From Sphingopyxis sp. HIX (GTDB taxonomy: Bacteria > Pseudomonadota > Alphaproteobacteria > Sphingomonadales > Sphingomonadaceae): 64,000 nt of DNA. Shown piece by piece: positions 26,433 through 35,023 of this stretch. The first letter of the stretch is position 1. The number at the start of each line of letters is the position of its first letter. The position numbers and the translations under genes are program-made. The notes beneath the pieces are model-generated. The model worked only from the letters and a program-made list of their open reading frames with translations. It was not told where the DNA came from and made no database searches. The DNA lies in the NCBI RefSeq assembly GCF_001468285.1, contig NZ_LNSB01000010.1:1-64000 (forward strand). The letters are read 5' to 3'.

Positions 26433-30713
<4,281 letters not shown>

Positions 30714-30755
30714 GTCTTTGTCCTCAATCGAGGGAAAATCTTCAAATGCTTCAGT

Positions 30756-30834
30756 TGCCGGTGGTTGGGACTTGAACCCACACCCCTTTCGGGGACCACT
30801 GTAGTGATACGTCTACCAATTCCGTCACACCGGC
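30756..30834 (-). tRNA. Deviant tRNA-Leu-like element between rpoB and rpoC
   Basis: A 79-base sequence read on the reverse strand. It begins GCCGGTGTGACGG and ends CCACCGGCA, with a perfect 7-bp acceptor stem (GCCGGTG/CACCGGC). It has a leucine-type D arm (GAATTGGTAGA), a T loop TTCAAGT in the stem TGGG/CCCA with an extra A after it, and a 4-bp CCCC-GAAA-GGGG variable-like arm. Between D arm and variable arm only about 13 bases remain, too few for a 5-7-5 anticodon arm, so no normal anticodon is visible. Either it is a tRNA-Leu pseudogene or a tRNA-like structure with another role, such as RNase P or Z processing of the rpoBC message. No CCA is encoded. Confidence 0.6.
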
Positions 30835-30844
30835 ATCTGATCCA

Positions 30845-35023
<4,179 letters not shown>

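Follow-up and report, generated by a model that had tools for sequence, protein, structure and literature searches.

A tRNA-Leu-like element of 79 nt, lying between rpoB and rpoC in the window (the whole stretch of 64,000 nucleotides of DNA analysed here), belongs to a family of RNAs that keep the body of a leucine tRNA and carry a clipped anticodon arm. The family comprises 50 distinct sequences including the window's own, 11 of them in the rpoB-rpoC (rpoBC) spacer and 39 elsewhere, and is almost certainly a real, conserved RNA that does not decode. These figures derive from the 51 loci (11 rpoBC and 40 stand-alone) left after second copies had been removed; the stand-alone set leaves out the four second copies L086, L087, L132 and L133. 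For the window element we propose that it is a member of this non-decoding family and may bind an enzyme that recognizes the tRNA body, with LeuRS considered first, a reading that as a whole and from the sequences compared we rate slightly short of an even chance. The parts of the element and their surroundings are listed in Table 1.

Table 1. Coordinates of the tRNA-Leu-like element, its parts and the adjoining genes in the window.
Feature	Position	Strand	Remark
Whole tRNA-Leu-like element, 79 nt	30756..30834	-	RNA position 1 = 30834
Acceptor stem, 5' strand GCCGGUG	30828..30834	-	7 bp; both-sided changes in two pairs
D arm ACG-GAAUUGGUAGA-CGU, leucine type	30809..30825	-	highly conserved, partly demanded by the pattern-scan query
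Clipped anticodon arm AUCAC-UACA-GUGGU, 5-bp stem	30795..30808	-	stem covaries
4-nt loop UACA of the clipped anticodon arm	30800-30803	-	whole arm = RNA positions 27-40
Variable arm CCCC-GAAA-GGGG, 4 bp and GNRA-type tetraloop	30783..30794	-	8 to 21 nt long in 43 relatives
T arm GUGGG-UUCAAGU-CCCAAC	30764..30781	-	one extra A (30766), 3' side
Acceptor stem, 3' strand CACCGGC	30757..30763	-	
Discriminator base A73, then no encoded CCA	30756..30756	-	
Stalk, 5' strand UCAG, upstream of the element	30837..30840	-	
Stalk, 3' strand CUGA, downstream of the element	30751..30754	-	
rpoB, upstream gene	30845..35023	-	ORF; Pfam-confirmed
rpoC, downstream gene	26433..30713	-	ORF; Pfam-confirmed

The element begins 10 nt past the stop codon of rpoB and ends 42 nt ahead of the rpoC start on the minus strand, and the ORFs and Pfam matches of the two genes bear out the earlier note, which had placed it between them on the coding strand. 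The perfect 7-bp acceptor stem, the leucine-type D loop and the CCCC-GAAA-GGGG arm described there were likewise found, with U8-G9 between acceptor stem and D arm, and the single extra A reported for the T arm proved to sit on the 3' side of the T stem. In the same-genus relative G007, the T stem shows a change from U-A to C-G that fits a pairing in which the extra A is left unpaired. The description of the anticodon arm as absent has to be corrected: the arm is clipped and not lost, since a 5-bp stem (AUCAC/GUGGU) is kept through two-sided changes in relatives and closes a loop of 4 rather than 7 nt.

When the region alone was scanned with permissive filters, as a covariance-model check of the kind proposed earlier, the Rfam tRNA model spanned the element from end to end with 34.0 bits (gathering score 29). 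An Rfam scan of the entire window at gathering scores did not list it, presumably because the fast filters dropped the candidate, and ARAGORN called neither the element nor any tmRNA in the window. Among 55 family copies ARAGORN overlaps a single one, which it reads as tRNA-Arg. Rfam at gathering scores gave no match in those 14 of the 43 pattern-scan loci (see below) that were submitted to it, and no Rfam family other than tRNA reaches its gathering score in the window or in these 14 loci. The folding energy of the element is unremarkable (z -1.4; 19 of 200 shuffles were equally stable). A chance cloverleaf is ruled out not by this energy but by relatives, that is by covariance-model matches and by a copy at the same place, the rpoB-rpoC spacer, in G007; the element goes beyond chance because relatives carry it and its pairs covary.

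A covariance model (R1) built from the window element and three same-genus relatives scores the window element at 105.9 bits. Searched against the taxonomic family with the best 11 candidates per genome scored, it found members scoring 78-106 bits in at least 9 of 397 genomes, one of them the window's own. The best score below these was 63.7 bits, and all 21 loci fetched from among the lower-ranked matches (63.7 bits or less) are tRNA-Leu genes by ARAGORN. In a class-wide search, 1 of 385 genomes matched among the best 12 candidates scored per genome, namely the window's own. A scan with a sequence pattern through a single genome of each GTDB 220 species yielded 43 records from 41 genomes (28 isolates and 13 metagenome-derived), every one of which is matched by a second model, R2, at 68.6-103.9 bits. 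Sphingomonads predominate among them, with records in Sphingomonas, Sphingobium, Novosphingobium, Hephaestia, Citromicrobium and Porphyrobacter; a few come from Brevundimonas, Rhizobium, Azospirillum and unnamed alphaproteobacteria. Since the pattern demanded GGAA within the D arm and a loop of 4 nt with A as its last letter, the 43 records are no proof that these features are constant. A 4-nt loop is found in all 12 sequences obtained without that pattern, four from the finding itself and BLAST and eight from R1, a model itself trained on 4-nt loops. Among the family members found, none has a full anticodon loop, nor was any orthologue seen with the complete anticodon arm by which the earlier note would have judged the window copy merely decayed.

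Of the 80 genomes of the genus, four have the element, always as a single copy: the window's own genome (G000) and G007 in the rpoBC spacer and G075 and G080 elsewhere. Absence from close relatives, which the earlier note had counted against its proposal when joined with a lack of transcript ends at the element, therefore holds for most of the genus, whose rpoBC spacers carry the element in two of the 80 genomes. The window element occurs once in its own genome, and there is likewise a single copy in each of 12 carriers searched as whole genomes and in 39 of the 41 pattern-scan genomes. Two different stand-alone copies each were seen in Sphingobium lactosutens xwAA3 (L110 and L114) and in Novosphingobium sp. 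SG919 (L099 and L128). Phages and viral contigs held no match to the family. Plasmids gave no match to the window's own element; a family query was matched over 78% of its length on two Sphingomonas paucimobilis plasmids.

Selection on the fold is apparent from the pattern of substitution. With a hand-set structure, standard pairs fill 100, 99.7 and 97.9% of the pair cells in alignments of 4, 12 and 42 distinct sequences, the 42 coming from the pattern scan, and 6, 8 and 11 of the 24 pairs show two-sided change, values matched by 15, 3 and 0 of 500 shuffles, respectively; the 12- and 42-sequence alignments were fitted to the model structure and are biased towards it, whereas the 4-sequence MAFFT alignment is not. 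The covariation score was equalled by none of 500 shuffles in each of the three alignments, and sliding the partners by 1-3 columns left 26-51% of the cells paired. For further standard pair types, 443 and 485 of 500 shuffles reached or exceeded the observed count with 4 and 12 sequences, and 1 of 500 did so with 42. Two-sided changes also separate the stem variants AUCAC/GUGGU and AUCGC/GCGAU at the anticodon position, while the letters of the clipped loop vary (UACA in 25, CACA in 5, AACA in 4 and others in 9 of 43 sequences). Elsewhere the letters are held: the T loop reads UUCRA in all 51 loci though the pattern did not demand it, GGUAGAC occurs in the D loop of 50 of 51, and 46 of 51 have a U where U48 would be. 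A73 is present in 41 of 51 (11 of 11 rpoBC and 30 of 40 stand-alone loci). A small protein was rejected: a frame is open through some copies, but variable arms of 12, 14, 19, 20, 21, 13, 18, 11, 9 and 8 nt break it, so that no frame is kept.

Measured against a functional tRNA-Leu, the cloverleaf with its 7-bp acceptor stem and its D, variable and T arms is present, and the 7-nt anticodon loop with a leucine anticodon is absent, the loop having 4 nt both in the window element and in the other members identified, which is too short for the usual codon reading. CCA after the discriminator is encoded by none of the 51 family loci and by all 35 ordinary tRNA-Leu genes of relatives, so that charging would need the CCA-adding enzyme. 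A dead tRNA-Leu gene, which the earlier note had also considered, would account for the missing codon-reading loop and for the invisibility of the window copy to ARAGORN. Yet a pseudogene should be under relaxed constraint with its stems free to break, and here pairing holds in 97.9% of the cells, with two-sided change in 11 of 24 pairs. This strong covariation over 42 distinct sequences, the 4-nt loop shared by the 12 sequences found without the pattern (eight of them through R1, with its 4-nt training set) and the upstream motif common to many copies leave a dead gene scarcely credible. That the element has been kept for some purpose other than decoding, the alternative put forward at the same time, gains support from the covarying fold, from the lack of a full anticodon loop in every member found and from promoter-like sequence before the stand-alone copies.

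This upstream sequence was counted in 37 stand-alone loci, i.e. the 50 loci less eight in rpoBC and five with near-identical upstream sequence. A -10-like motif, [GC][CT]TA, lies 7-16 nt before the RNA in 27 of the 37 (against a mean of 0.9 and at most 5 in 2000 control draws from the same loci), TT[GC]-N19-21-[CT]TA in 20 (control 0.2) and GGAC[AG]TT near -40 in 13 (control 0.0), the motifs having first been read off these same sequences and then counted, and being promoter-like by sequence alone. The -10-like motif is present in none of the eight rpoBC loci. In stand-alone loci such as L136, L108, L094, L103 and L124 a CCGGAC[AG]TTG-like motif was noticed about 35-48 nt before the RNA, where it overlaps the expected -35 box; it may bind a regulator or belong to a dispersed repeat.

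The genes next to the copies have little in common. ORF clustering within 4.5 kb of the 50 loci, to the extent of the DNA fetched and for clusters of three or more loci, disclosed no shared neighbour besides rpoB and rpoC and the frames that run through the element itself. With 127 of 130 neighbour proteins scanned (three long ones were left out), no Pfam or PADLOC family, and thus no linked transposase or integrase family common to the copies, occurs in more than two of the 127; the PADLOC matches are to the mad1, mad2 and PDC-M08B models, with one or two members each. By crude gene calls, in which open frames were ranked by third-position G+C, 21 of 36 stand-alone loci have a convergent next gene. 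A cis-acting leader was rejected for the stand-alone copies, whose next genes are mixed in direction and kind and include no common neighbour; a fixed position upstream of co-oriented genes holds for the rpoBC subfamily and not for these copies. Because they have promoter-like sequence, no shared neighbour and often a convergent next gene, the stand-alone copies look like genes for trans-acting RNAs and not like leaders.

The copies in the rpoBC spacer form a subfamily, in which the acceptor strand GCCGGUG is found in 11 of 11 sequences versus 0 of 40 stand-alone loci. All rpoBC copies read lie on the coding strand in the same spacer, and in nine of the 11 the flanks pair with one another into a stalk of at least 4 bp (shuffled expectation 2.4; several of these flanks are near-identical), whereas the same test on stand-alone copies gave 18 of 40 (expectation 14.6). 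A comparison of the rpoB-rpoC gap among sphingomonads, as had been suggested, finds the element in 11 distinct spacers and a plain hairpin in most relatives without it. In this comparison 51 distinct gaps were kept, the rpoC start not having been located in 4 of 25 loci (L154, L163, L165 and L169). Among element-free relatives, many of them near ones, 34 of 40 distinct spacers fold with z below -2 (median -3.4); the 11 element-bearing spacers have a median z of -2.2, with two at about -0.4 and no better than shuffles. The spacer seems to be a slot where some structure matters.

In mitochondria, tRNA punctuation separates mRNAs, and RNase P cuts at the junction of MALAT1 and mascRNA. By analogy, the rpoBC element could be a processing or insulation signal at which RNase P and RNase Z, or RNase III acting on the stalk, separate the rpoB message from that of rpoC. 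Such a role would suit the constant strand and spacer of the rpoBC copies, the hairpin that mostly fills the slot in the near and other relatives that lack the element, and the weak similarity of the window element to the mascRNA model (14.4 bits, below the gathering score of 42.5). It agrees poorly with the 39 of 50 distinct members that lie outside rpoBC, most with promoter-like sequence, and the stalk formed by the rpoBC flanks is expected to impede both RNase P and RNase Z. RNase P cleavage is thus disfavoured by the stalk and by the existence of stand-alone copies, and we consider the signal a doubtful alternative, with perhaps a minor share of the probability. The earlier proposal that the element was kept to cut the rpoBC message accordingly finds no support as a general role and may apply to the rpoBC subfamily.

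Some element-free spacers have peculiarities of their own. Those of L006 (G023), L025 (G004), L158 (G433) and L167 (G305), 207-220 nt long, contain putative open frames of 49, 71, 58 and 70 codons with hydrophobic-looking stretches, and those of L011, L166, L168 and L171 contain long paired repeats, 127-198 nt including the stop codon, which form highly stable hairpins (z of -5.5 to -6.8) and give the impression of being REP-like.

The carriers are dispersed over the tree of a flanking gene. On an rpoC tree of 57 distinct rows, 10 carriers require 10 changes (mean with shuffled labels 9.4); this tree leaves out L141, and a version with L141 and without L154, L165 and L169 gave the same count. 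Carriers make up 3 of 10 genomes in the genus of G311 and 2 of 11 in that of G326. In the genus of G311, non-carrier G348 is the partner of carrier G453 (98/97; 94/97 in a tree of sequence distant from the spacer), and carriers G311 and G263 fall together with non-carriers G411 and G109 (99/99; 100/99 in the distant-sequence tree); the G348 row is partly N, and the distant-sequence trees were cut to leave that part out. The spacers are nevertheless nearly alike among the carriers G311, G263 and G453, as are the 74-nt spacers among the non-carriers G411, G202, G348 and G109. Within 300 nt of the spacer, G453 agrees at 99.0 and 98.0% with carrier G263 versus 97.7 and 96.0% with G348, and further out at 88.3 and 93.7% with G263 versus 98.0 and 96.3% with G348. 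A tree from the 600 nt flanking the spacer gave no resolved grouping. Because spacer types cut across the flanking-gene tree in this genus, the spacer seems to exist as alternative alleles, probably swapped by short-tract recombination.

A different reading is that of a selfish or hitch-hiking RNA gene which moves between genomes by horizontal transfer and recombination and brings its host no advantage. Its patchy presence, with as many changes as carriers on the rpoC tree, the spacer types that cross the flanking-gene tree in one genus, the different sites in different genomes and the broken-looking copy on one S. paucimobilis plasmid, with the same match on a second, can all be read in that way. 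Mobile genes shared among the neighbours and matches in phages or viruses are wanting, the copy number is one in the 12 carriers searched as whole genomes and in nearly all pattern-scan genomes, and both the compensatory changes and the upstream motif that copies share suggest that it is the RNA itself that is under selection. A purely selfish RNA is therefore, in our estimate, unlikely.

We return to the reading proposed at the outset. The parts that make up the L shape are kept (the 7-bp acceptor stem, the leucine-type D loop, the UUCRA T loop and the long variable arm), and the RNA may act in trans as a tRNA mimic, occupying an enzyme that reads the tRNA body and not the anticodon; on the sequences compared, a trans-acting mimic stands at about even chances. 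In bacteria, LeuRS recognizes tRNA-Leu through A73 and the tRNA core and makes no use of the anticodon. LeuRS would thus be the first candidate enzyme, because a leucine-type D loop and, mostly, A73 are kept, and this choice of partner is a tentative one that will probably need revision; against it, 10 of 40 stand-alone loci lack A73, no locus encodes CCA, and 12 carriers and 12 non-carriers are alike in having one LeuRS gene per genome above the family cut-off. A second LeuRS in carriers was thereby ruled out at that cut-off; in the non-carrier G193 the gene scores as two pieces of one frame. No genetic partner came to light, and the small number of genomes with the element (at least 9 of 397 in the taxonomic family, 4 of 80 in the genus) and the two element-bearing spacers that fold no better than shuffles also count against the mimic reading. 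In rpoBC, the copy would be co-transcribed with the two genes and fill the slot for a structured spacer that a plain hairpin occupies in relatives; depending on its folded or bound state, it could adjust rpoC with respect to rpoB. A bolder possibility, which we regard as a long shot, is that mimics regulate the leucine-charging or tRNA-maturing machinery in trans in alphaproteobacteria, the rpoBC subfamily being an exchangeable spacer allele that makes the output of RNA polymerase subunits depend on the status of tRNA or leucine.

The same leucine-type body could serve another end, that of a charged non-ribosomal donor to which LeuRS attaches leucine that the ribosome cannot use and a transferase such as Aat then spends. 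A73 in 41 of 51 loci is consistent with this, as is the dispensability of the anticodon for leucine recognition. CCA is not encoded, A73 is not universal, and the copies have no common neighbour gene; a cyclodipeptide synthase (CDPS) gene was detected in 0 of 24 genomes, a weak argument since the controls were equally silent. We hold a leucine donor to be quite improbable and prefer the mimic.

In kind the family is tRNA-like, or pseudo-tRNA; what is new is its conservation as a family with a clipped anticodon arm, promoter-like sequence upstream and a subfamily in rpoBC. Bacterial tRNA-Leu (class II, RF00005) is alike in the 7-bp acceptor stem, the D arm GGAAUUGGUAGAC, the long variable arm, UUCRA and, mostly, A73; the family differs in its 4-nt anticodon loop, in encoding no CCA and often in one extra base on the 3' side of the T stem, and R1 separates its members (at least 78 bits) from the next matches (at most 63.7). 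The mascRNA of MALAT1 (RF01684) has a tRNA-like fold with a reduced anticodon region inside a long transcript, features that recall the rpoBC copies, but it is an animal RNA whose model matches the window element below the gathering score, and most family copies stand alone. The tRNA-like domain of tmRNA is a tRNA body without a decoding anticodon and has alanine features, whereas the family is of the leucine type and only about 80 nt long. Allo-tRNAs, which are also non-canonical, keep an anticodon, while the anticodon loop of the family is shortened. Among allo-tRNAs and other non-canonical bacterial tRNAs, reviewed in PMC7609411, one reportedly carries an extra bulged base in the acceptor/T branch. 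The pseudo-tRNA 'tRNAOther' of Bacillus cereus is likewise a tRNA-like RNA outside translation, which may lie within a larger regulatory RNA, but as presented in an extract of PMC3399842 it is a single element adjoining a genomic island in an unrelated lineage. Full-text searches of open-access literature, which leaves out most subscription papers, listed no description of the family.

Annotation of tRNAs tends to discard candidates without a readable anticodon, so that conserved non-decoding tRNAs can go unseen; the exclusion of pseudogene-labelled tRNAs and those of undetermined anticodon from a survey of 42,109 genomes, described in an extract of PMC13092985, illustrates how such RNAs escape notice. 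The 28 isolate genomes from the pattern scan alone offer test beds for non-decoding roles of the tRNA body, and the rpoBC spacer constitutes a natural experiment in which closely related species carry either a tRNA mimic or a plain hairpin.

Two minor observations concern the surroundings of copies outside rpoBC. The broken-looking S. paucimobilis copy (plasmid NZ_CP065669; L146, 4001-4063) has no 5' acceptor strand and lies in an unannotated stretch bordered by a hypothetical gene and a gene of the Fic family, about 2 kb from a Tn3-family transposase; that on the second plasmid (NZ_CP065714; L147) was recognized from match and annotation. A repeat-like sequence, GGGGTGGGAAGC, adjoins the copies of G080 and G075 and occurs at four places in the window's genome.
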